From positions 1 through 23,666 of the IMG/VR virus record IMGVR_UViG_3300027834_000132: 23,666 bases of DNA. The stretch is one strand, 5' to 3'. Of this stretch, positions 9,244 to 23,613 are shown in pieces (positions within the stretch are counted from its first letter, which is position 1; each line of letters begins with the position of its first letter). Position numbers and translations under genes: made by a program. The notes below the pieces were generated by a model. That model was not told the DNA's origin. It made no database searches and saw nothing but the letters and a program-made list of their open reading frames with translations. Source of the DNA: a virus.

Positions 9244-11310
9244 TTAGCCGCCGTCTGACTTCACAATTCCGTTTGGATCTTGGAGAGATGCACCAACATC
9301 GATGTAGCCTCTGAAACCTACGCCGAGTTGTGTTGCAGGTGGTGCAACTCGCTCAATGGTTGGCTCAACCTTGCCATTGAGAGCGAGTAGCTCAACTGCA
9401 GCAACAACTGCTGGATTTGCGAGCATAAACCAAGCAGTAGCGCTACTGCCTGAATAGAACTCATCTGACAGATGTGGAGCTGATACAACTTGGTACTTGC
9501 CCCTGTGAGGATTCATGTTTCCAGCAGCAGCCCCGCCGCCCGCATCGATCTGAGCAGATCCAGTGAGGATTTGAGCATCGATTTCATGCTCAGGGGGAAC
9601 GAGCAGGATCTCGGGTCTGATGTTGATTGGTTTCTGGTCTTTCTTCTTCGTTCCTGGCCCAGCCTTTTGTTTACGGAACTTGAGAACTGCTGCCTTCATA
9701 CCAGCTTGGCCAAACTCTGAACCTGCTCCAGTGATCAGGTTGTTATTGTCGGCGTGCATGAAGTTTCCAGCGTTTGCTGCAATGAGCCCAAACACTAAGT
9801 CATTCAAAACCTCTCGTCCAGAATGCCCCATCAGCGTTCCAGCATCTTGAAGCATTTGCAAATCATCATTGATCATCGTTTGACGATCAACAAAGATCAC
9901 TTGTGCGTAGGTATCAGCCTGGTTTGTAAATTTCTGATCTGTGAGTTTACCGCTCGGAATCTCACCACCTGCCCCAACTTTTTCAAACTGTCCAGTACCA
10001 AACAATCGAAGTCTGGATACTTGCTTGAAGTCAGTTGTTCGAGAGATTTTCGCAATTTGCAGTGCTTGAATCTCTGCGCTCTTGTATGCCATAAGAGCTT
10101 GCTTATTCATCACATTCTCAAGAATATTTGAGAGTGAGTTTGTGCTGAATGCACCTCGAATCCAGGCTTCACCGTCACCCCAGATACGCCCATGATCTTG
10201 CCCGTTCATATGACAGGAGAGCATTGCAAGCTCTTGAAGTCCTACGCCCTTGAAGGCATCTGCTGCCTCAAGTGTTTTCTCTCCGTAGAACTTCATTCGT
10301 TTCTCTTCAGAAACTCCCAGTGTGTTCATCACTGCAGCTTCAAGGGTCAACTCATTTAGATTCTTGGGTTTGTCGTCGCCTGCTCTTGCAACTCCGTTCA
10401 CTGTTGGCCTACTTGCTTTGAGAATTTCAAGCTCTGCTTTTGTTGGAGTCCAACCTTGCTCGATAGCTTGTGCTTGAATAGCTTGATTGTCTGCACATAT
10501 CGCTTGAATCTCTGCAATCCGGGTACTCTCAGCTGCATGTCGAGTTCTGATATCAACAATAGATTGATCAACATCAGCACCAGTTGCAGGAACACTTGGA
10601 ACCCCGCCTCCTGGGTTTGGTGGTGATGTTTCGCTTTTCCAAGCTGCTTTGAGTGTTTTGAGTTGATTCTTGCTGAGCGTTTCTGGATCGAAATCCTGCG
10701 CCTTGAGCCATGTTTCAAAGTCCATATCTTTGCCTTCCTGCAGCGCCGCCGCAATTTTAGTTTTGGTGTTTGCATCCGCTCCAAGCGATACAACAGACAC
10801 CTCTTTCAATGTTGATTTTTCAATGACATATAACGGCCCGCGAAACTCACGACCGTTTACTTTTACTGATGCACCCGCTCGGATGAGCTGAACATCAGAT
10901 CTCCGAAATGGAGTTCCAATGGATGCTTGCCAGGGAAAGCCATTTTTCCCTGATGTAACTATCCGCTGAGAGTCTTCACTCTCTGCACTGATCACGCCTT
11001 CTACGAATACATCACTCGTAGTTTTTTCAATATTGGTAGTGTGTCCAACTTCCCGCCCTTTATCGTGATCGCGTAGAAGTGGAATCTTTTTCCTGCTGAT
11101 GTTGAGCCCTGCAATATTTACAATCACAGGAAGTTCAAACAGTGGGCTCATCATTGGCCCGCCTGTATATGCAATTTGCGATACTTTAGGAAGATCTCCA
11201 CTTGATGAATCAGCAAACTGGATCTCTAGCTCTCGCCCTGAATCGCTCAGCTGCAAAACTTCCTCGTTAGAACCAAAAGTGAGCATTTCAAACGGTTCAC
11301 TCGTCTTCAT
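9244..11310 (-). CDS. Prohead protease (S78)-major capsid protein fusion
   Basis: A 688-residue protein with two parts. Residues about 55-190 are an HK97-type S78 prohead protease: LLRDHDKGREVGHT holds the catalytic His candidate, and KEVSVVSLGADA holds the nucleophile Ser candidate. A Pro/Gly-rich linker and a coiled-coil-like region (about 225-300) follow, like a scaffolding/delta domain, and then a capsid domain of about 380 residues (FVDRQTMINDDLQML, and AWFMLANPAVVAAVELLALNG near the end). Such fusions occur in many prophages; self-cleavage would release the capsid subunit. It overlaps the portal 3' end by 14 bases. ATG at 11310 is six bases from GAGAGG; ATG at 11313 is possible. Confidence 0.9.
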   Translation of the reverse strand: MKTSEPFEMLTFGSNEEVLQLSDSGRELEIQFADSSSGDLPKVSQIAYTGGPMMSPLFELPVIVNIAGLNISRKKIPLLRDHDKGREVGHTTNIEKTTSDVFVEGVISAESEDSQRIVTSGKNGFPWQASIGTPFRRSDVQLIRAGASVKVNGREFRGPLYVIEKSTLKEVSVVSLGADANTKTKIAAALQEGKDMDFETWLKAQDFDPETLSKNQLKTLKAAWKSETSPPNPGGGVPSVPATGADVDQSIVDIRTRHAAESTRIAEIQAICADNQAIQAQAIEQGWTPTKAELEILKASRPTVNGVARAGDDKPKNLNELTLEAAVMNTLGVSEEKRMKFYGEKTLEAADAFKGVGLQELAMLSCHMNGQDHGRIWGDGEAWIRGAFSTNSLSNILENVMNKQALMAYKSAEIQALQIAKISRTTDFKQVSRLRLFGTGQFEKVGAGGEIPSGKLTDQKFTNQADTYAQVIFVDRQTMINDDLQMLQDAGTLMGHSGREVLNDLVFGLIAANAGNFMHADNNNLITGAGSEFGQAGMKAAVLKFRKQKAGPGTKKKDQKPINIRPEILLVPPEHEIDAQILTGSAQIDAGGGAAAGNMNPHRGKYQVVSAPHLSDEFYSGSSATAWFMLANPAVVAAVELLALNGKVEPTIERVAPPATQLGVGFRGYIDVGASLQDPNGIVKSDGG

Positions 11311-12817
11311 CATCGTCCTCTCGGTTATCTGAATTTGAATTCCCGCTTGATAGTGCAGGTGTTTTTTCAGGTGTAGTCAGCCCGAGTTCTTTTCTGTACT
11401 CTTCAACTTCGAGCTGCCCATCTAGAACATCTTGCCAATCATGGCCGAGATTCGCGCACTCAATGATTTCGTTAGAAACACCTGTTTCTAGGCGATGCCG
11501 TAAACCTGCTCCCTCTTTCGCTGGGTCTGCATGAATCTGAGCTGGCCACATCCAAGCAAACTTGAGCTTTGGTTCTCTACGGCGAAGCGATTCAGGCAAC
11601 AACCCATCTACAAGCTGAGCCTGTGAAAGCCAAGCTCTAAAAATCCGGTCGATTTCAGTTACTCTGAACTCTCTCCGATCAACCGTGATCTTTTTGAAGT
11701 AGATCATTCTATCGAGTTTTCCGCTTGCAAAGTTGTGCTTTGAGCTATCGCAAAGAACTACATTGATTGGCATTGATAAACAACGGCCAATATCGTTTGC
11801 AATCTGTCGCCTGAAGTCTGCAAATGTCGTTGTTGGGTGTTCAGGTTTGGTCTGAAAGAGCTTGTATCCATCGGGCATAACTGTTGCCATACCTGGAGTC
11901 ATGGGAACCTCATCCATTGGCTCAGGAGCTGAATACGATTCATCTTCAGGGTCTGGGGGGTTGTCTGTTTGGATCGATGTAGCAAGGTTTGCTGCGTTCT
12001 CAGCTGCTGTGAGTGTTGCGCTCTCGTAACGCCGTAGCTGTGCAAACTGATTCAGCGCTGGAGTGATATCAGGGACACCGCGAACCTGGCCGACTCTTCG
12101 AGCTGTGAAAAAATGAATGATGTAATCTGCATCAATCCAATCATGATCATTTTCGTCGTTAACTTGTGCTATTGATCGATCATCTGGGTGATGCTTGAGA
12201 ACTCGGTACTTTGTAGGGTTGCCATTCTTATCAAACTTAATGCCGTCAACTTCACGGATATCAATATCAGATGAATACGGGTTTGCAACTCGCTCAGCTT
12301 CGATGAGCTTGATATTCATTTGTACCGGATGATCTACTTTCTCATCAGTTACAATCGTCGAGAAAACTTCTCCATCTGTGACCTTGCTTGAGACTGCAAG
12401 TAGTAGCGTTCCCCAAAGATCAACAGTATCAACCCATTCATTCCAGATCTGTTCGAGCTTCTGAGCATCTTGACGCGATACGCCTTGATTCTTTGTTGAA
12501 GGAACCTGCAATCTAGGCCCATCACCTATGAGATCTTCTGCATAAGTATCAACGATCCCGCGAGCTAATGAACTGTTTGCAGTCTCATATCGCGCTCGAT
12601 TTCGTAGTGATTCACGAACACCTGGAGAGTTTGCTTGCCGTGCTGAGATAGAACCAGCTGCGCTCCAGTGAGTCTCGTTGATCCCGCCTGTCTCAGATGA
12701 TTCATATGAAAACGCCTGGAGCATTCGCATTGTTGAGAGAGCAGTTCGCAACTTTGTGCGAACTCGCTTAGGACTCACTGTTGATCCTGCACTCGATATC
12801 AGACTCAATAGCTTCAT
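11297..12817 (-). CDS. Portal protein (lambda gpB family)
   Basis: A 506-residue protein forming the dodecameric DNA gate at the capsid vertex. It matches the lambda-type portal family (Phage_portal_2): an N-terminal RNRARYETANSSLARGIVDTY segment, a central DWIDADYIIHFF strand followed by RRVGQVRGVPDITPAL, the clip/stem segment RQIANDIGRCLSMPINVVL, and the C-terminal WMWPAQIHADPAKEGAGLRHRLETG signature with GHDWQDVL. The tail end is acidic (DDDEDE). The start overlaps the stop of the gpW-like gene as ATGA. Gene order terminase, gpW, portal, protease/capsid is that of lambda. Confidence 0.95.
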   Translation of the reverse strand: MKLLSLISSAGSTVSPKRVRTKLRTALSTMRMLQAFSYESSETGGINETHWSAAGSISARQANSPGVRESLRNRARYETANSSLARGIVDTYAEDLIGDGPRLQVPSTKNQGVSRQDAQKLEQIWNEWVDTVDLWGTLLLAVSSKVTDGEVFSTIVTDEKVDHPVQMNIKLIEAERVANPYSSDIDIREVDGIKFDKNGNPTKYRVLKHHPDDRSIAQVNDENDHDWIDADYIIHFFTARRVGQVRGVPDITPALNQFAQLRRYESATLTAAENAANLATSIQTDNPPDPEDESYSAPEPMDEVPMTPGMATVMPDGYKLFQTKPEHPTTTFADFRRQIANDIGRCLSMPINVVLCDSSKHNFASGKLDRMIYFKKITVDRREFRVTEIDRIFRAWLSQAQLVDGLLPESLRRREPKLKFAWMWPAQIHADPAKEGAGLRHRLETGVSNEIIECANLGHDWQDVLDGQLEVEEYRKELGLTTPEKTPALSSGNSNSDNREDDDEDE

Positions 12818-13014: not shown

Positions 13015-13020
13015 GCCCAA

Positions 13021-13091
13021 CTGATATCAGATTCAGAGCTTGGTTTTTTATGTTGATTATGTCGCACATAAAGATTCGTACAGATCTGTAC
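13021..13091 (-). promoter_or_regulatory. Palindrome-rich control region before the head genes
   Basis: Three perfect or near-perfect dyads lie in 71 bases between the zinc-ribbon gene and the gpW-like gene: GTACAGATCTGTAC (13078-13091, perfect), TTATGTCGCACATAA (13057-13071, six-base arms) and CTGATATCAG (13021-13030, perfect). A CATAAT within the second dyad on the minus strand could be a -10 element, but no good -35 is visible. The TTATGT/ACATAA half sites resemble the operator-like dyad at 22940-22957. I infer a promoter/operator for the head and tail genes. Confidence 0.5.
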
Positions 13092-13093
13092 TT

Positions 13094-13276
13094 TTATTGC
13101 TTTTTAACCTTCGGATTGCGCTCATAGCTTGTGAATCTTCGTTTGCAATGAACACACTCTCTCACCCGTCGAACGCCTCTAAAAGCTGGCCTGGTATATT
13201 TAACAGGTGTGAAAGCACTGTTGCAGTTTGGGCATCTGAGCCCCATATCTTCCGATTCTTTAGCATCCTTGCTCAT
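13094..13276 (-). CDS. Small NrdR-like zinc-ribbon protein
   Basis: A 60-residue basic protein with four cysteines as two CxxC knuckles: C15/C18 (RCPNCN) and C41/C44 (ECVHCKRRFTSYE). The second knuckle and the following RRFT-YE segment resemble the zinc ribbon of NrdR repressors and of small phage zinc-finger proteins of Ogr type, but no ATP-cone domain follows. A nucleic-acid-binding regulatory role, perhaps for the adjacent palindromic control region, is a reasonable guess. AGGAG lies five bases before the start, and the gene begins eight bases after the terminase stop. Confidence 0.7.
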   Translation of the reverse strand: MSKDAKESEDMGLRCPNCNSAFTPVKYTRPAFRGVRRVRECVHCKRRFTSYERNPKVKKQ

Positions 13277-16801: not shown

Positions 16802-17036
16802 CGCCGCCTCCATTCGATTCGAGTTCTTCGCGTGCTGGCGCAGCTGCTTCGGTAGTCGAGTAGCTACTCTCACTCTCCAATCGATTGAGTGCGGATGCGA
16901 GAGCTTTGAGGATCTCAATTGAGACTAATTTAATGATCCAAATTCCGTCGAAAATAAGTCTTATTGCTCCATAGAATATAAAAAAGAAAAAACCGACAAA
17001 CTGGACAATGTCTGCTATTTGAATCCCATCACTCAT
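16794..17036 (-). CDS. Small membrane protein, holin candidate
   Basis: An 80-residue protein with a long hydrophobic region (residues about 6-48, including VQFVGFFFFIFYGAIRLIF and IWIIKLVSIEILKAL) that could form two membrane helices, followed by a polar, acidic C terminus. Size and layout suit a holin, and no other better candidate exists except the coiled-coil membrane protein at 8473-8775. Position in an early-looking gene chain is not typical for a holin. Start overlaps the preceding stop by eight bases. Confidence 0.6.
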   Translation of the reverse strand: MSDGIQIADIVQFVGFFFFIFYGAIRLIFDGIWIIKLVSIEILKALASALNRLESESSYSTTEAAAPAREELESNGGGDE

Positions 17037-17244
17037 CTGATTCGGCTTTCATTTTGTATGTCTTGTTAGGTTGTGGATCTACTACGACTAATCCGCTCTC
17101 AATCATTTGAGTGATGATTCGAGTTGCAGCTGTGTATCCCAATCCCAAATGCCTTTGTAGCAATGAGACTCGAACAAATCCCATTCGCTTGCCAAGATCG
17201 ATTGCTCGTTCGTAAACAATCAGTTCCTTCTCACTCATACTCAT
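17029..17244 (-). CDS. Free-standing FtsK gamma-like winged helix
   Basis: A 71-residue protein matching almost only the gamma domain of the DNA translocase FtsK: YERAIDLGKRMGFVRVSLLQ, then RHLGLGYTAATRIITQMIES and GLVVVDPQPN. In FtsK this winged helix reads KOPS sequences and activates XerD. Against the Escherichia coli segment GYNRAARIIEQM, the protein reads GYTAATRIITQM: the middle Arg (R42) is kept but the Asn and Glu positions are Thr (T38, T45). No motor domain exists in the element. It may bind DNA as a regulator or interfere with host FtsK. Start forms an ATGA overlap with the upstream stop. Confidence 0.75.
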   Translation of the reverse strand: MSMSEKELIVYERAIDLGKRMGFVRVSLLQRHLGLGYTAATRIITQMIESGLVVVDPQPNKTYKMKAESDE

Positions 17245-17841: not shown

Positions 17842-18910
17842 TCGCTGCAGTCCTCATTGTCCTGATGGTTTCCCATCGTGCCAAAATAAAATCAGTCATC
17901 TGATCCCAGTTGATCAGATCAAATCTGAACTTCCCATCGGGCATCAGCTCAGAACAAATCTCAGCTCCAAGCTCGCCCTCGATGAGTGTTTGAGTTCGAG
18001 TCTGGAGCATTCCGATTGCGTCACCTGGTTGATTCTGAATGAACTTGATGAACTCGTTTCGTCGGCGCTCCTGAGCTTGAGTTCGTTTGATTGATTTCTG
18101 AGACGGCTCAGGCCCTCCAGGCCGCGTTGCGATTGTTCGGAGTAGTCCTAGAGGGTTTCGCACGCTGCCGCTGCTTAGGCGCTCTCTGAGCCGCTCCAGG
18201 GCAACGATCCCGATTGTTCTGTCGTTGATTCCCAGCTCGATGAATGAGTGAGCGCATTGACCTGCAAGCCCTGAATCGAATCCGACTCGCTTGGCCTCTT
18301 TGACCCATTCCCCCTGATCGAAGATCAAACCCCCAGCAGCAGCAGCAGCAAGAATCTGCTCAGCTTGCTGGGCGCTGCTGCTGCTGCTGGTACTTGCAGG
18401 AATTGCAGTTTCTTCCTTAATGTCGGCGGCAGGAGCTGCACCCGATGGTGCAGGAGCTGCACCCGTTGCGGCAGGAGCTGCACCCGTTGATTTGATCGCG
18501 TGCATGTCCTGCACCCGTTCGAGTGCAGGAGCTGCATCCGTTCGGGTGCGAGAGCTGCACCCGTTGCCCGTTGTTTTTAATCGAGCATCGACCCGATCTG
18601 ATGGTTGTAGCCATTCAGCTAATCGCTCATAATGCATCCGATATCGAGCCGCTCGCCCAGGAGCAGGTGTTCCGATTTGTTCTAAAATTCCATGCTCTTT
18701 CAGGATTGCGATTGCCATACGAACTGATCGCTTGCTCAGACAAGTTCTAAGCTCGATGATGGAAGTTGGTACACAAAGATCTGCTCCAGGCGCTCCCAGT
18801 CCTCTGAGACACCATAGAACTGATTTCAGAGTGGGTTGACCACATCCGAGTCCTTTGGGTGGTACACATCGATCTGTGATGATCGTTGCTTGTCCTGCAT
18901 CTATTTGCAT
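17834..18910 (-). CDS. Putative replication initiator with winged helix and internal iterons
   Basis: A 358-residue protein. Residues about 22-95 form a winged helix like those of phage replication initiators (KSVLWCLRGL, then CVPTSIIELRTCLSKRSVRM as helix-turn-helix and AILKEHGILEQ as the wing-preceding helix). A low-complexity Ala/Pro/Ser linker (about 115-185) follows, then a helical C-terminal part. The linker DNA holds the iteron-like array and a CAG/CTG inverted repeat, the plan of lambda O where the origin is inside the initiator gene. The start is the ATG at 18910, eight bases after GGAGG; upstream ATGs at 18955 and 18925 lack such a site. No helicase or primase gene accompanies it. 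Confidence 0.7.
   Translation of the reverse strand: MQIDAGQATIITDRCVPPKGLGCGQPTLKSVLWCLRGLGAPGADLCVPTSIIELRTCLSKRSVRMAIAILKEHGILEQIGTPAPGRAARYRMHYERLAEWLQPSDRVDARLKTTGNGCSSRTRTDAAPALERVQDMHAIKSTGAAPAATGAAPAPSGAAPAADIKEETAIPASTSSSSSAQQAEQILAAAAAGGLIFDQGEWVKEAKRVGFDSGLAGQCAHSFIELGINDRTIGIVALERLRERLSSGSVRNPLGLLRTIATRPGGPEPSQKSIKRTQAQERRRNEFIKFIQNQPGDAIGMLQTRTQTLIEGELGAEICSELMPDGKFRFDLINWDQMTDFILARWETIRTMRTAANV
18333..18390. repeat. 16-bp perfect inverted repeat of CAG/CTG units
   Basis: CCAGCAGCAGCAGCAG at 18333-18348 is the exact reverse complement of 18375-18390, with a 26-base loop. On the coding strand the units give a run of five Ser and a run of five Ala in the linker of the putative initiator. 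The arms could form a long hairpin or cruciform. It lies 38 bases from the iteron-like array. It could be part of an origin or only a trinucleotide expansion tolerated in a disordered linker. Confidence 0.8.
18429..18566. repeat. Iteron-like array, possible replication origin
   Basis: Six copies of a 19-20 base unit, consensus GCAGGAGCTGCACCCGTTG, with the core CTGCACCCGTT (one base changed in copies one and five). Cores start at 18436, 18457, 18478, 18509, 18532 and 18555: spacings 21, 21, 31, 23 and 23, close to whole helical turns. Most copies hold an internal dyad; copy two is the perfect GGTGCAGGAGCTGCACC. Because spacings are not all multiples of three, the unit is translated in three phases, so conservation is at DNA level. 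No long AT-rich stretch adjoins it. Confidence 0.72.
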
Positions 18911-18987: not shown

Positions 18988-19950
18988 TCAAATCGCAAGT
19001 TTGATTGCAGCGTTCAGGGCTGCAGTGTCGTCAGGTTCTGCATAGATCAAAGTTGTTCTCGGGTCTGCATGTCCGAGCAGATCTGCAATCAGCTCCAGCT
19101 GAATGCCCTTAGAACGGGTTTCAGTCGCGTACCCATGTCTCAGTTGATTGGGAGTCCAACGATTAACACCGGCCCGATCACAAGCTCTGCGCACTGCTTG
19201 ATGAATCGAGTTCGTCGCGTATGGCTTCTCTCCATGTCCATCAACTGAGAACAAATAGCCCTCGCTCTCTGGAGCAAACAGATTGAGTCCAACGAGTGTT
19301 GAAATGCGCTCAACTGTGAGCTTGTGCGCTCTCCCAACTAAAAAGATTCGACGGCGTTTCCCCAGGTACGATGTTTTGTGCATCTTGGGTATATACCGAA
19401 TCACGGTTTTTCCCTCGACTTCAATTGTGGTGAGTTCAGATGCTTTCATCATCCTTGCTTCACCTGGACGCATTCCAGTGAGCTGAATCATCTCCATCAT
19501 GTCTCTGATTGGATCTGCTAGGTAGTCATCTTTGAGGACGGTTTCAACATCAGATATAACTGCAGGGCGCACTGGATCACGATCACGGGCTCCATAGCGC
19601 CCACGCTTGACCTTCTCAACACTTGTGAGCGCTATGAGCTGTTCAGGCTTTGAGAACCCGCGCTCAATACACCATTTCACTAAACGAGTCACATATTGAA
19701 TTCGCTTGTTGATAGTGGAACGAATCACTTTGCCTTCATGCGCCCATTGATCCCGCAACTGTGCAAGCGTGGGGGCATCGAGCTGGATGAGCAATCGAGA
19801 TCCTACTGAACTCACTAAGGGCTTTAAGCCGCTTCTCAAGTTCTGAACTTCCCGAGTCGGCCCATCTCCTGAATCATAATAATGTGTTCTATCAGCCAAA
19901 TACATTTGAACTGCTGCCTCGATGGTGATTGATTCTGATGATTGAAACAT
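18988..19950 (-). CDS. int: Tyrosine site-specific integrase
   Basis: A 320-residue tyrosine recombinase. The N-terminal part (about 1-110) is a SAM-like core-binding domain (AAVQMYLADRTHYY; TINKRIQYVTRLVKWC). Catalytic candidates: R161 in TGMRPGEARM, K192 in the hairpin, R271 in TPNQLRHGYATE, H294 in LLGHADPRTT and the nucleophile Y303 in LIYAEPD. The first position of the HxxR box is N268 rather than His. Start at ATG 19950 follows GGAGG by eight bases; a longer frame to 20109 would run into the spike gene. It most likely catalyses insertion into the tRNA-Gly gene, although it lies about 4 kb from the nearest att copy. Confidence 0.95.
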   Translation of the reverse strand: MFQSSESITIEAAVQMYLADRTHYYDSGDGPTREVQNLRSGLKPLVSSVGSRLLIQLDAPTLAQLRDQWAHEGKVIRSTINKRIQYVTRLVKWCIERGFSKPEQLIALTSVEKVKRGRYGARDRDPVRPAVISDVETVLKDDYLADPIRDMMEMIQLTGMRPGEARMMKASELTTIEVEGKTVIRYIPKMHKTSYLGKRRRIFLVGRAHKLTVERISTLVGLNLFAPESEGYLFSVDGHGEKPYATNSIHQAVRRACDRAGVNRWTPNQLRHGYATETRSKGIQLELIADLLGHADPRTTLIYAEPDDTAALNAAIKLAI

Positions 19951-20002
19951 GATAAATAGCCTCCGAAAAATAAAAAAATCGTCGGCTCTTATGCGTCCGT
20001 GC

Positions 20003-21859
20003 TTAGAGCAAATTTTGAGATGGAAACGGTTTAGTAAGAATCGTTGATGCTGGAGATTCGTCCGTGATCTCAGGCACTTGCTGAACAAGTGTGCCGTCGG
20101 CAAAACCAATCATGGTTGTTGATGCTCTATCAAACCCCCAACCGTCATTGGGGTTGTTTGCAAGTCGTGGCATCGATTCAACTTCCATTGATGGATACGC
20201 ATACTCGCCTAGTATGGTTTCACCTTCGTAATCAGTTCCAACTGCTGAGAGAGCATTCCATTCAAGTAAAGTTTGATTGATTGAATCTGCAACGAGCTGT
20301 CCGTTTACTCTGTTGTTGTCACACGCTCCAGGAGCAAACGCAGATGTTTCAATCTTCATACCACCTGCAATAACCAAACAACCCTGGATCTCTTGTCCCT
20401 GGAGAAGAACTGCAGTTGGATCAAGAGCGCTTGTGATCAGCCCCTCTGATGTACAGTTGTAAGCTCTCACATGATCATTGAGATCATTCACACCTGCTTG
20501 CGTTCCCGCTCCCAGGCTAATGCCATTGACCCCTGCATAGCAGTTGCGTAATCGGACATGAGAACAATCTTGCCGAACATCTATGTTTGCTCCTGCAGTT
20601 GAAACTCCTGTTGACCAAACACCGTCCAGCGTGATGTGATTCTCAATGAGTGATCCATCAGAACCAGTTTGCGAACCGATCTCAACGCCTCCATCAATGC
20701 AATAAGGCCCGATGATGTTTGAGTATGTTGGATAGGTATATCGAATAGTTGATTTTGACTGAGTTGCGGAGTTGTCATACCGGCCAAACATGGTCTTTAG
20801 ATTCTTAACTCGACCAGCACCCGAAACGGTTGTTCGGAAAATCGATTCGTTCACCGATGCTCCAAAGTCGCCGCCATAAATATGAATGAGATCTTGATCG
20901 TTGGTTCCTCCAAGCGCGACGGTATAACTTCCAGATGTTGTCGAGCCTGCAGCTTCGCAGTTGATCAGTGAGTTGCAAACCATCGCTTGCGAACCACTAT
21001 CAAAGTAGAAGGGTTTTCTGAAATGTGCTGCATCAACATGCGGACTATTCAACACCTTTCCATTGATGATTGCACAATGATTGCCCCTGAATCTACACGC
21101 CTTGCAATCATTTGCAGCAGATCTGGTAGATGGTGCAAAGTTCACCCCGTCGATGATGCTTCCTTCAAACCCCTGGGCAAACTCAAACAATCTTTGAGTA
21201 TTGCCAACGGTATCATCATGACCCATCACTGATCTTGCTCCATTAACAGGATCAACGGTTTCTACTAAGCAGTAGTTCCTCTGAATTCTAAACATCCCGT
21301 CACCTAAGACGGTTTCATCGAAATCATTATCAACAATGAGCTTTCTTGAGTCGCCACCTGCAAGCCAGGACTCAGCAGACGACCAATCAGAATAATCCCG
21401 TCCAGATGTTCCCAGGGTTGCACTCGATCGAGTATCAGCTTCAATCACAACGCCCCATGAAACAGTAGTTGATTCTCCTGATGGGTTTTCACAAGTGAGA
21501 TCGATTGAATAGCTGCCCTCGATGAGCGTGTAGTTTTGTGAATACCCAATCATCATGTTTCGAGTTCTGCCTTCATCGCCTCCCCGTAGATCTACGATGG
21601 TTGCAACTGGACTACCTGCGATAACCACGAATGCAGCTGAACTCATTAGCCGTTCATCTCGAACCTTCATATATCGATCAGGGATGTTTGCAGGATCTGT
21701 TCCAGATATTCCATTGAGTTTCCAGTAGAACTGGCAATCATCAATGAGTGATCCATCACCTGAGTTGAAGGTTGAATCGTCGAGACTGTAACCTACATGA
21801 CAAGGCCCCATTTTGATAGATGGTTCATGTGCAGTAAGTGCTATTGTTGGTGCTGCCAT
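20003..21859 (-). CDS. Putative tail spike/fibre with beta-helix
   Basis: A 618-residue protein with an N-terminal sheet domain (about 1-140, PKD-like: TIALTAHEPSIKMGP; LIEGSYSIDLTCENPSG) and a long repetitive region (about 170-500) with the pattern of a right-handed parallel beta-helix, with short strands and recurring Asn/Gly/Cys turns (IINGKVLNSPHVDAAHF, VRLRNCYAGVNGISLGAG, VRAYNCTSEGLI). A different C-terminal part follows. Such proteins are commonly receptor-binding or polysaccharide-degrading spikes, but I cannot see a catalytic site. It has AAAGGA about ten bases before its start. It is separated from the other tail genes by att. Confidence 0.65.
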   Translation of the reverse strand: MAAPTIALTAHEPSIKMGPCHVGYSLDDSTFNSGDGSLIDDCQFYWKLNGISGTDPANIPDRYMKVRDERLMSSAAFVVIAGSPVATIVDLRGGDEGRTRNMMIGYSQNYTLIEGSYSIDLTCENPSGESTTVSWGVVIEADTRSSATLGTSGRDYSDWSSAESWLAGGDSRKLIVDNDFDETVLGDGMFRIQRNYCLVETVDPVNGARSVMGHDDTVGNTQRLFEFAQGFEGSIIDGVNFAPSTRSAANDCKACRFRGNHCAIINGKVLNSPHVDAAHFRKPFYFDSGSQAMVCNSLINCEAAGSTTSGSYTVALGGTNDQDLIHIYGGDFGASVNESIFRTTVSGAGRVKNLKTMFGRYDNSATQSKSTIRYTYPTYSNIIGPYCIDGGVEIGSQTGSDGSLIENHITLDGVWSTGVSTAGANIDVRQDCSHVRLRNCYAGVNGISLGAGTQAGVNDLNDHVRAYNCTSEGLITSALDPTAVLLQGQEIQGCLVIAGGMKIETSAFAPGACDNNRVNGQLVADSINQTLLEWNALSAVGTDYEGETILGEYAYPSMEVESMPRLANNPNDGWGFDRASTTMIGFADGTLVQQVPEITDESPASTILTKPFPSQNLL

Positions 21860-21905: not shown

Positions 21906-22193
21906 TCAGTTTTGGGTGATTGCTTCGTTGCGTTTTTTGAGTGTTATTTTTCTTTGTTCTAGTTTCGATCCATACTGAGAAACCAGATTTTCTATATATG
22001 ATTTTTCCTGCTTGAGCTGAGCCAAGCATTCATCTCTCTGATCCTCAACGGCTTGAATCCGTTGATTCTTCATCTGGATCACTCCTGAAAGCTCTTCGTT
22101 GTGAGTCTGAGTTTCCAGCAACTCTCGGTAGAGAATCTCTTTTCGTCTGATGTGAATTCGTACTGATTCAATTGCTTTTTTAAGCATCTTCAT
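21906..22193 (-). CDS. Small coiled-coil protein
   Basis: A 95-residue, highly charged, almost wholly helical protein; the stretch from residue 10 to 85 has heptad-like spacing (for example ELLETQTHNEELSGVIQMK and QRDECLAQLKQEK). The N terminus is basic. The start at 22193 overlaps the previous stop as ATGA, with AGAGG seven bases upstream; the longer frame to 22268 would overlap without need. Unknown function, directly before the spike gene, so a chaperone for the spike is possible. Confidence 0.65.
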   Translation of the reverse strand: MKMLKKAIESVRIHIRRKEILYRELLETQTHNEELSGVIQMKNQRIQAVEDQRDECLAQLKQEKSYIENLVSQYGSKLEQRKITLKKRNEAITQN

Positions 22194-22519
22194 GAAGCAA
22201 CCTCTTTGCTTTCTGTGTCGATTTTGATTGTGCTGTTTCCAACTCTGCGAACTTTGAACCCTGCACACTTCAACGAGCGTGCTTCGAGTACAACCAGGAC
22301 TGCAGCAATCCAGCTCTCACCTCTTGGCCGTGTGCCGCCTTGCTCGCAAATCACTCGGTGCGCGTGTTCGAGATCCTGGGCAAGTTCGATTGCAGTTTCA
22401 TTCTGCTGAACAAAATTCAAGACTCTTGCCCAATGCCCTGATGTGTAGGCAGGAACGGGTTTTGACCCAAGCATCGCTTGAGTTCTCCAGATCCCTTTTT
22501 TGTGTTGAGATGAACTCAT
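22190..22519 (-). CDS. Small protein, unknown function
   Basis: A 109-residue protein with no family I recognise. It has a central helical part (RVLNFVQQNETAIELAQDLEH, then GESWIAAVLVVLEARSL) and a short sheet-like end (GFKVRRVGNSTIKID). Start at the ATG at 22519: it forms an ATGA overlap with the stop of the RMF-like gene and stands eight bases after GGAGG. Its stop overlaps the next gene in the same way. Coupled expression with an RMF-like protein suggests an early host-modulating operon. Confidence 0.65.
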   Translation of the reverse strand: MSSSQHKKGIWRTQAMLGSKPVPAYTSGHWARVLNFVQQNETAIELAQDLEHAHRVICEQGGTRPRGESWIAAVLVVLEARSLKCAGFKVRRVGNSTIKIDTESKEVAS

Positions 22520-22761
22520 GTGCATTCCCTCCAGCTGCTTGCTGAAATGAATGCGCCGTGCCCACTGAGCCAGGCTTTACGCCATGATCCTGAGCCCCGC
22601 CCAGGTTCATATGGGCACTTTGAAACTTCAGCGCCCCGAGCAGCTGCACGAACTCCCTTCATCCAGGCGTTTGCTCGTCCAGATCCTCGACCTTGTGAGT
22701 GGTAGTGTTCAGGGACTTCAAAACGAATCCCCTTTGCAGTGAATGGTGCAATGGCAACCAT
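22516..22761 (-). CDS. Ribosome modulation factor-like protein
   Basis: An 81-residue protein whose middle resembles ribosome modulation factor, the small protein that silences and dimerises ribosomes in stationary phase. The segment ANAWMKGVRAAARGAEVSK, then CPY (residues 49-51) and GSWRKAWLSG matches the RMF plan GxxAxxxG-x5-CPY-x8-WxxxW. RMF-like proteins occur in several phage genomes. It is the first gene of a short overlapping operon. The ATG at 22761 follows GGAGG by four bases, while ATGs at 22776 and 22788 lie upstream of that site. The role, shifting host translation, is an inference. Confidence 0.55.
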   Translation of the reverse strand: MVAIAPFTAKGIRFEVPEHYHSQGRGSGRANAWMKGVRAAARGAEVSKCPYEPGRGSGSWRKAWLSGHGAFISASSWRECT

Positions 22762-22873
22762 GTAGCCTCCGTGCATACATGCGAACATCCAAAAATGAGA
22801 TTGCGCGAATGCGAAAACTCACCTTTTGGGTGATCTTGGTTCATGCCCCTTTGATGTGGTTGGGGCTAAATGT

Positions 22874-22905
22874 GTCTCACGATGTATTTTGTCAACGGGT
22901 GAGAC
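22874..22905 (-). promoter_or_regulatory. Dyad with an internal TTGACA box
   Basis: GTCTCAC at 22874-22880 and GTGAGAC at 22899-22905 are perfect inverted seven-base arms around an 18-base centre that contains TTGACA on the minus strand (22895-22890). A good -10 is not visible at 17 bases (CATTTA), so this is either a weak promoter with an overlapping operator or an operator only. It lies upstream of the RMF-like operon. Confidence 0.45.
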
Positions 22906-22921
22906 GACCGAAGACATGAGC

Positions 22922-22950
22922 ACCATATCGGCGCTTTAGCTTTATGTCAA
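22922..22950 (-). promoter_or_regulatory. Promoter for the right-end operon
   Basis: On the minus strand a perfect -35 box TTGACA (22950-22945) is followed after 17 bases by TATGGT (22927-22922), four of six matches to TATAAT. It points toward the RMF-like operon, the start codon of which is about 160 bases on. The -35 lies inside an 18-base palindrome, which suggests repressor control. Confidence 0.55.
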
Positions 22951-22957
22951 CATAAAG
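22940..22957. promoter_or_regulatory. Operator-like palindrome over the -35 box
   Basis: CTTTATGTCAACATAAAG is a dyad with perfect eight-base arms around a two-base centre. It covers the TTGACA of the minus-strand promoter, a classic position for a repressor site. Half sites TTATGT/ACATAA recur at 13057-13071. The repressor is not identified: no cI-like gene is visible, and candidates are the winged-helix, FtsK-gamma-like and zinc-ribbon proteins. Confidence 0.6.
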
Positions 22958-22975
22958 AATCTGTTTGTGAATAAC

Positions 22976-23383
22976 TCAATGAACTGGTAACGAGTGACCT
23001 GTTCCAAAATTATTTTCAAGTGCTTCGTAGAGTTCATAATCTGCAAGCTCATGAAGTCTTGTTATAGAAGCAGTTGATTCTAAAACTTCCAAAAGAGCAA
23101 GCGTTTCCTCGTAATCTTCATCTTCATAAATCAGTTTCAGATTCGCAGTTCTGCTTATTTCACAACTGCCTTGCCAGTAAATAGATATATCCAAGCCTGC
23201 ATCAAACATTGGGATCAGATACATACTTGGTATTGCAGGTATTGGCCCGAGTACTCCAAAGCTGTTCCCTTCATCATAAATCACAATCAATCTATCATTG
23301 TGGCGTATGAGTCGAAGACCGATAGGCATCGTTTCTTCAGGTGAGTTCTGTGTGCTATTAATTTGAATCTGAATACTGCCCAT
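22976..23383 (-). CDS. Acidic accessory protein at the att-proximal end, unknown function
   Basis: A 135-residue acidic protein that I do not recognise. The first half is sheet-like (SIQIQINSTQ; GLRLIRHNDRLIVIYDEGNSFGVLGPIPA), the second half helical and Glu-rich (LKLIYEDEDYEETLALLEVLESTAS). The start at 23383 has GGAG seven bases upstream; an in-frame ATG at 23470 lies in the att/terminator region and is unlikely. It stands alone between a terminator and the operator region, next to att, a typical place for morons or immunity genes. It is not a helix-turn-helix repressor. Confidence 0.6.
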   Translation of the reverse strand: MGSIQIQINSTQNSPEETMPIGLRLIRHNDRLIVIYDEGNSFGVLGPIPAIPSMYLIPMFDAGLDISIYWQGSCEISRTANLKLIYEDEDYEETLALLEVLESTASITRLHELADYELYEALENNFGTGHSLPVH

Positions 23384-23460: not shown

Positions 23461-23587
23461 ATCCGGGCATGTTTTCCAGGCGATAGCCCGCTTAATCCTG
23501 GTTGGAACACTCCCCCATTTAGCAAAGGGATTGTTTCCAAAAGCGGGTGAACGGACTCGAACCGTCAACATTCAGCTTGGAAGGCTG
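23461..23587. repeat. Right attachment-site direct repeat
   Basis: This block is identical to 1-127. It covers 81 bp downstream of tRNA-Gly and the 3' part of the gene (anticodon loop to discriminator). Identity ends in the anticodon loop, consistent with strand exchange by tyrosine integrases, which often act near the anticodon stem-loop. The intact tRNA at this end shows that the element supplied the 3' half of the gene. Confidence 0.92.
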
Positions 23588-23613
23588 ACGCTCTACCATT
23601 GAGCTACACCCGC
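23542..23613 (-). tRNA. tRNA-Gly (UCC anticodon)
   Basis: A full cloverleaf can be read on the minus strand. The acceptor strand GCGGGTG pairs with CACCCGC, the D arm is GCTC-AATGGTA-GAGC, the anticodon arm TCAGC with loop CTTCCAA (anticodon TCC) pairs with GCTGA, and the T arm is GACGG-TTCGAGT-CCGTT. The discriminator is T, as usual for bacterial tRNA-Gly. CCA is not encoded. It is the integration target and remains intact. Host DNA (23614-23666), with no recognisable gene, lies upstream of it. Confidence 0.96.

Follow-up and report, generated by a model that had tools for sequence, protein, structure and literature searches.

The stretch of DNA analysed here, referred to as the window, is the whole of the IMG/VR virus entry IMGVR_UViG_3300027834_000132 and comprises 23,666 bases. 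Its assigned genes all lie on the minus strand, none on the plus strand, and its two ends share a long direct repeat:

1-127, unstranded: left att copy, an exact match to 23461-23587
18988-19938, minus strand: tyrosine integrase (PF00589, 2.3e-17 on the longer reading frame 18988-20109)
23461-23587, unstranded: right att copy of the 127-nt exact direct repeat, which holds the 3' part of a tRNA-Gly gene

The intact tRNA-Gly (tcc) occupies 23542-23613 on the minus strand, and a remnant of it is detected by Rfam at the left att (82-141, 33.5 bits). The window also carries an O-like replication gene (a phrog_391 match) and homologues of TerL, portal and TerS. Taken together, the integrase, the O-like replication gene, the TerL and portal homologies and the 127-nt tRNA-Gly repeat indicate a temperate tailed phage, judged from its sequence most likely a small one integrated at the tRNA-Gly gene. 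The number 127 is a common assembler k-mer too, so that the record might consist of a circular phage genome plus a host junction. The 211-bp gap at 22765-22975 exceeds every other non-coding stretch between assigned genes; it heads the all-minus-strand gene series that includes the integrase and the O-like replication gene.

Elsewhere in the window, five degenerate direct repeats of 22-24 nt (GCGGCAGGAGCTGCACCCGTTG-like) lie within the O-like replication gene at 18423-18566 and are possible origin iterons. A single ORF of 689 amino acids fills 9244-11313, where protease and major capsid genes would sit; from its position and length we would guess at a protease/major capsid fusion.

TerL relatives number 265 of 268 stretches in viral contigs and 108 of 127 in genomes, and the best 80 of each were kept. 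Their identity is 48% at most. Among the best 80 kept, the named genomes with TerL relatives belong mostly to the Planctomycetota, many of them to the Phycisphaerae. Three genomes (G004, G393 and G101) have genes that match the tRNA-Gly at 97% identity over 76-77 nt, and G004, which contains locus L127, is a Phycisphaerae MAG. The host is probably a planctomycete of the Phycisphaerae.

Promoter, dyad and leader at the right end

The 211-bp gap and the genes on either side of it contain the following features:

22516-22761, minus strand: RMF/CrpP-like small protein, the first gene downstream, with its ATG at 22761 behind GGAGG (22770-22766)
22762-22915, minus strand: predicted structured leader with several hairpins, in which GUCUUCG pairs with CGGAGGC
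22887-22896, unstranded: half-site TTTTGTCAAC, 9/10 against TTATGTCAAC and flanked by GTCTCAC/GTGAGAC arms
22927-22922, minus strand: -10 hexamer TATGGT, after a 17-nt spacer, with a predicted start near 22915
22940-22957, unstranded: candidate operator dyad CTTTATGTCAACATAAAG, with perfect 8-nt arms and a 2-nt centre
22950-22945, minus strand: -35 hexamer TTGACA, wholly inside the dyad
22976-23383, minus strand: orphan 135-aa ORF, upstream of the promoter and adjoining the att

The original prediction had described TTGACA, 17 nt and TATGGT facing the RMF-like gene, with the -35 box inside a dyad with eight-base arms, and direct reading of the sequence bears out every one of these details. The promoter agrees with the consensus at 10 of 12 positions, as in sigma-70-type promoters, whose near-consensus hexamers stand 16-18 nt apart, and a script scan found it to be the sole promoter with at least 10/12 in the 23,666-nt window. 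As a count this single promoter is no signal, because ten simulated windows held 2-9 such promoters each. Divergent promoters around shared operators were not found, the plus strand being devoid of any promoter with at least 10/12 in the window. The dyad was also considered as a hairpin or terminator and rejected as such (-4.4 and -5.4 kcal/mol, z -1.2 and -1.5; absent from the terminator-like sites).

Taken alone, the dyad is unremarkable, because the window holds 7 perfect dyads (arms of at least 8, gap of at most 8) against a Markov mean of 3.75. When the 187-nt stretch 22789-22975 was modelled in the same manner, a dyad appeared in 2.8% of the runs, and in 1.2% with a gap of at most 2. The joint feature, that is a promoter of at least 10/12 whose -35 lies wholly inside a dyad with arms of at least 8 and a gap of at most 2, occurred once when the 211-bp gap was simulated 20,000 times and never in 400 simulated whole windows; the thresholds were set post hoc, after the site was seen. 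The strength of this statistic depends on those thresholds: under looser ones (-35 of at least 5/6, arms of at least 7, gap of at most 4, any overlap), at least one such site turned up in 23% of the windows, of which 150 were simulated. At the post hoc thresholds, then, the dyad overlaps the promoter more than expected by chance.

The first gene downstream had been called RMF-like. A distant resemblance is plausible, although weak: the protein scores 24.9 bits (1.1e-5) against NF041886, where the curated cut-off is 28, and 19.3 bits against PF04957, where it is 27.9, and thus falls outside RMF/CrpP by both cut-offs. According to the predicted fold, the leader begins with 7 nt (GUCUUCG) that pair with the CGGAGGC covering the Shine-Dalgarno of this gene. 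From the predicted start to just past the ATG, the minimum free energy of this one sequence is -48.8 kcal/mol (z -2.86, reached in 0 of 200 shuffles); a repeat run gave z -2.92 and 1 of 200. The lowest z among 51 background windows was -2.70, and the second lowest, -2.21, belonged to the window covering the RMF-like leader. Starts just one base later lose the Shine-Dalgarno pairing in the predicted fold. Rfam matched the tRNA and its remnant only, with no credible match at the right end. On the folding of one sequence, the structured leader would be a second control layer for the RMF-like gene.

A second dyad and the TerL-portal motif

The exact arms TTATGT-N-ACATAA occur at one further place in the window, in the intergenic gap 13015-13093, beside two other features:

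13057-13071, unstranded: second dyad with the same arms, TTATGTcgcACATAA
13072-13093, minus strand: TerL-portal motif member (AAGTACAGATCTGTACGAATCT), containing the palindrome GTACAGATCTGTAC
13094-13276, minus strand: NrdR-type zinc-ribbon ORF of 60 aa (PF22811, 1.2e-10)

Its centre is 3 nt long, compared with 2 nt at 22940-22957. Simulation equalled the recurrence in 4 of 20,000 runs on the non-coding gaps and in 3 of 1,500 runs on the entire window; in a general gapped alignment the second copy scores 13, a value that 8 of 60 shuffled windows also reach. No sigma-70 promoter was found near 13057-13071, and the dyad abuts the TerL-portal motif. Among 67 TerL-portal spacers, the dyad of the window is the only one with a further exact-arm copy in its own locus. 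A private operator in the TerL-portal spacers of relatives was rejected as a general rule, a dyad being present in 6 of 67 (the window included) against 5.5 expected.

The adjoining motif takes the form agtTCtA.ATgcGgAACgATcT in loci such as L006, L017, L071, L078 and L086. Scores above 9 bits were obtained in 66 of 107 distinct TerL-portal regions, whereas shuffles gave 1-4 and the reverse strand 2; the 66 of 107 are partly by construction, because the matrix, seeded from 25 sites, was refined with the sites above 9 bits. With the seed-only matrix and a threshold of 16 bits, a site lies within 4.5 kb after TerL in 47 of 160 loci, with just 2 sites elsewhere in 2.25 Mb. The site in the window scores 12.7 bits, and no other position on its minus strand exceeds 5.7. 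A second element (GGGTAAGTAAC / GTAGGTAACC..TAGAC) often follows the motif, and its offset is 63 nt in 18 of the 36 sites where the pattern was found. The motif may be either a late promoter signal or a packaging (cos) site; with one site near TerL, packaging fits at least as well. Because it recurs across many relatives, the motif may matter more than the dyad.

The ORF that precedes the motif here, as in many relatives, encodes an NrdR-type zinc ribbon that lacks the rest of NrdR and is located between the TerL and portal genes. An ORF with a zinc-ribbon pattern occurs in 94 of 136 TerL-portal pairs, by a loose pattern whose matches in at least L106 and L160 look spurious.

Candidate regulators and rival explanations

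The original prediction noted that no cI-like gene is present. Among the 18 distinct right-half ORFs that we scanned (right of 12814, past the structural-gene ORFs, with all 18 compared with Pfam, 10 with PHROGs and 10 with NCBIfam), none matched the cI/Cro/XRE family. To this extent the statement holds, but two small domains of DNA-binding type do exist, an FtsK-gamma winged helix and the NrdR-type zinc ribbon at 13094-13276. One ORF is a candidate DNA-binding regulator by its profile matches:

17029-17244, minus strand: stand-alone FtsK-gamma winged-helix ORF of 71 aa (PF09397, 3.9e-9; phrog_13700, 2e-6)

In 20 relative records, the FtsK-gamma family gave 1 weak match and 0 over the cut-off. 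The orphan ORF at 22976-23383 has no match in Pfam, PHROGs or NCBIfam and none in 392 genomes. AlphaFold models of the orphan ORF and of ORF 22190-22525 were uninformative (pLDDT 46.5 and 44.9, respectively).

Relatives were sought with the RMF-like protein, the orphan ORF, the integrase and TerL, and none of those found carries the right-end genes; the searches returned TerL, portal, a few TerS and one integrase only. A match to the orphan ORF (L173) was set aside, as it is part of a 911-aa frame with a portal-like beginning. Matches to the RMF-like protein were likewise dismissed as noise, one (L186) being surrounded by longer open frames that overlap each other and several further weak ones being interrupted by stops. 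A dyad over a -35 box was found once in 1,052,714 bases of 80 viral loci (L067) and in 0 cases in one shuffle of each. Near 11300-11334 of L067, a TTGACT-type promoter precedes an ATG, and similar stretches occur in L060, L104 and L163; in L067 and L104, the dyad AAAAGTCTTGACTTTT covers the -35 box.

These observations bear on what the site at 22922-22957 might be. We think it probable that it is a real early promoter of a temperate phage with a repressor operator across its -35 box. It would drive early leftward transcription in a small temperate siphophage that sits in the tRNA-Gly gene, and the repressor, a DNA-binding dimer, would have its operator over the -35. While bound to the 18-bp dyad, the dimer would mask the -35 and thereby keep RNA polymerase out; once it is released, the RMF-like gene and those that follow would be expressed. 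As candidates for the repressor we would rank an unrecognised phage protein (the orphan ORF 22976-23383 or another small ORF) first, the stand-alone FtsK-gamma winged helix at 17029-17244 next and a host protein last. Beyond the sequence, the geometry, the statistics, the gene order and the att repeat that we observe, this account would entail binding of a protein, transcription from the predicted start, repression rather than activation and a link to lysogeny. The locus had been proposed as the lytic/lysogenic or early control point of the element, a proposal that gains from the promoter with its dyad in the longest gap, from the structured leader and from the second copy of the arms, and that stays conditional in its lysogeny part. 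Several points speak against the account. None of the 18 right-half ORFs scanned matches cI/Cro/XRE, the searches gave no relative close enough to show the site conserved, the second copy has a 3-nt centre and an alignment score that shuffled windows also reach, the statistics are post hoc and sensitive to looser thresholds, and the nine exact dyads in viral contigs look like chance. There is also a single full operator: the promoter has one full dyad and one half-site (22887-22896) and no set of several full copies, whereas classical phages typically have two or three operators at the early promoter. A more elaborate version, in which one repressor of an unrecognised type binds both dyads and silences early and head genes while the leader adds an RNA-level lock, is a speculative one to which we give little weight.

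The promoter could also be a genuine sigma-70-type one whose palindrome arose by chance and binds no regulator. The abundance of comparable dyads in the window, the 23% of simulated windows with sites under the looser thresholds and the nine exact copies of the dyad in viral contigs, which lie mostly in open frames of AT-rich contigs as they would by chance, are all in line with this reading. The joint test and the reappearance of the same arms in a second intergenic gap argue against it, and we regard it as unlikely. We are slightly more sceptical still of a transcription factor of the host, whose site would tie the early genes of the phage to host physiology and make a repressor gene of its own unneeded. 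The ORFs scanned contain no recognisable repressor gene, and a first gene resembling RMF would suit control by growth state; yet a hand tally that allows up to 2 mismatches counts 85 occurrences of the dyad, spread over 58 of 298 genomes of the likely host class, a set that perhaps does not include the true host, and the reversed-pattern control exceeds 85 before the end of its table. For this reason we see no sign of a host regulon: the scan for the 18-mer that had been suggested as a check yields no enrichment over the reversed control in these 298 genomes. Least probable by far is that the dyad serves mainly a positive regulator or an architectural or replication protein. Such a role would agree with a second copy that has no sigma-70 promoter nearby and adjoins a motif for which packaging or activated late transcription is a possible function, but full overlap with the -35 is the usual geometry of a repressor, and the possible origin iterons lie elsewhere, at 18423-18566.

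Comparison with known systems

We know of no worked-out lysogeny control in any planctomycete phage, and among the papers listed by a literature search, judged by title and the beginning of the abstract, none is a study of the subject. In P2 and P4, late control depends on a small zinc-binding protein, Ogr and Delta, respectively. The arrangement at the TerL-portal motif is similar in that the gene of a small zinc-binding protein and a dyad stand ahead of the head genes. By contrast, the ribbon here is of NrdR type rather than Ogr type, and the single site near TerL and the second element at fixed spacing also fit a cos site.

CTX-phi exemplifies phages under a host repressor such as LexA. The element resembles these in the missing repressor gene, as far as it was scanned, and differs from them in a dyad dissimilar to the LexA boxes familiar to us, with no enrichment across the likely host class. 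The LexA of planctomycetes is stated not to bind the motif used in E. coli (PMC3108266). The 18-bp dyad next to a predicted promoter offers a defined bait with which the regulator should be easy to capture.

The operators of lambda-like and XRE-type (cI/Cro) phages are AT-rich dyads of about 18 bp placed over the -35 of an early promoter. Unlike these systems, the element has a single full site, no divergent repressor gene, no recognised cI/Cro/XRE protein and one coding strand. Like them, it has an AT-rich dyad of about 18 bp on the -35 of what would be the early promoter of a temperate phage, and in this respect the site is an ordinary kind of control site.
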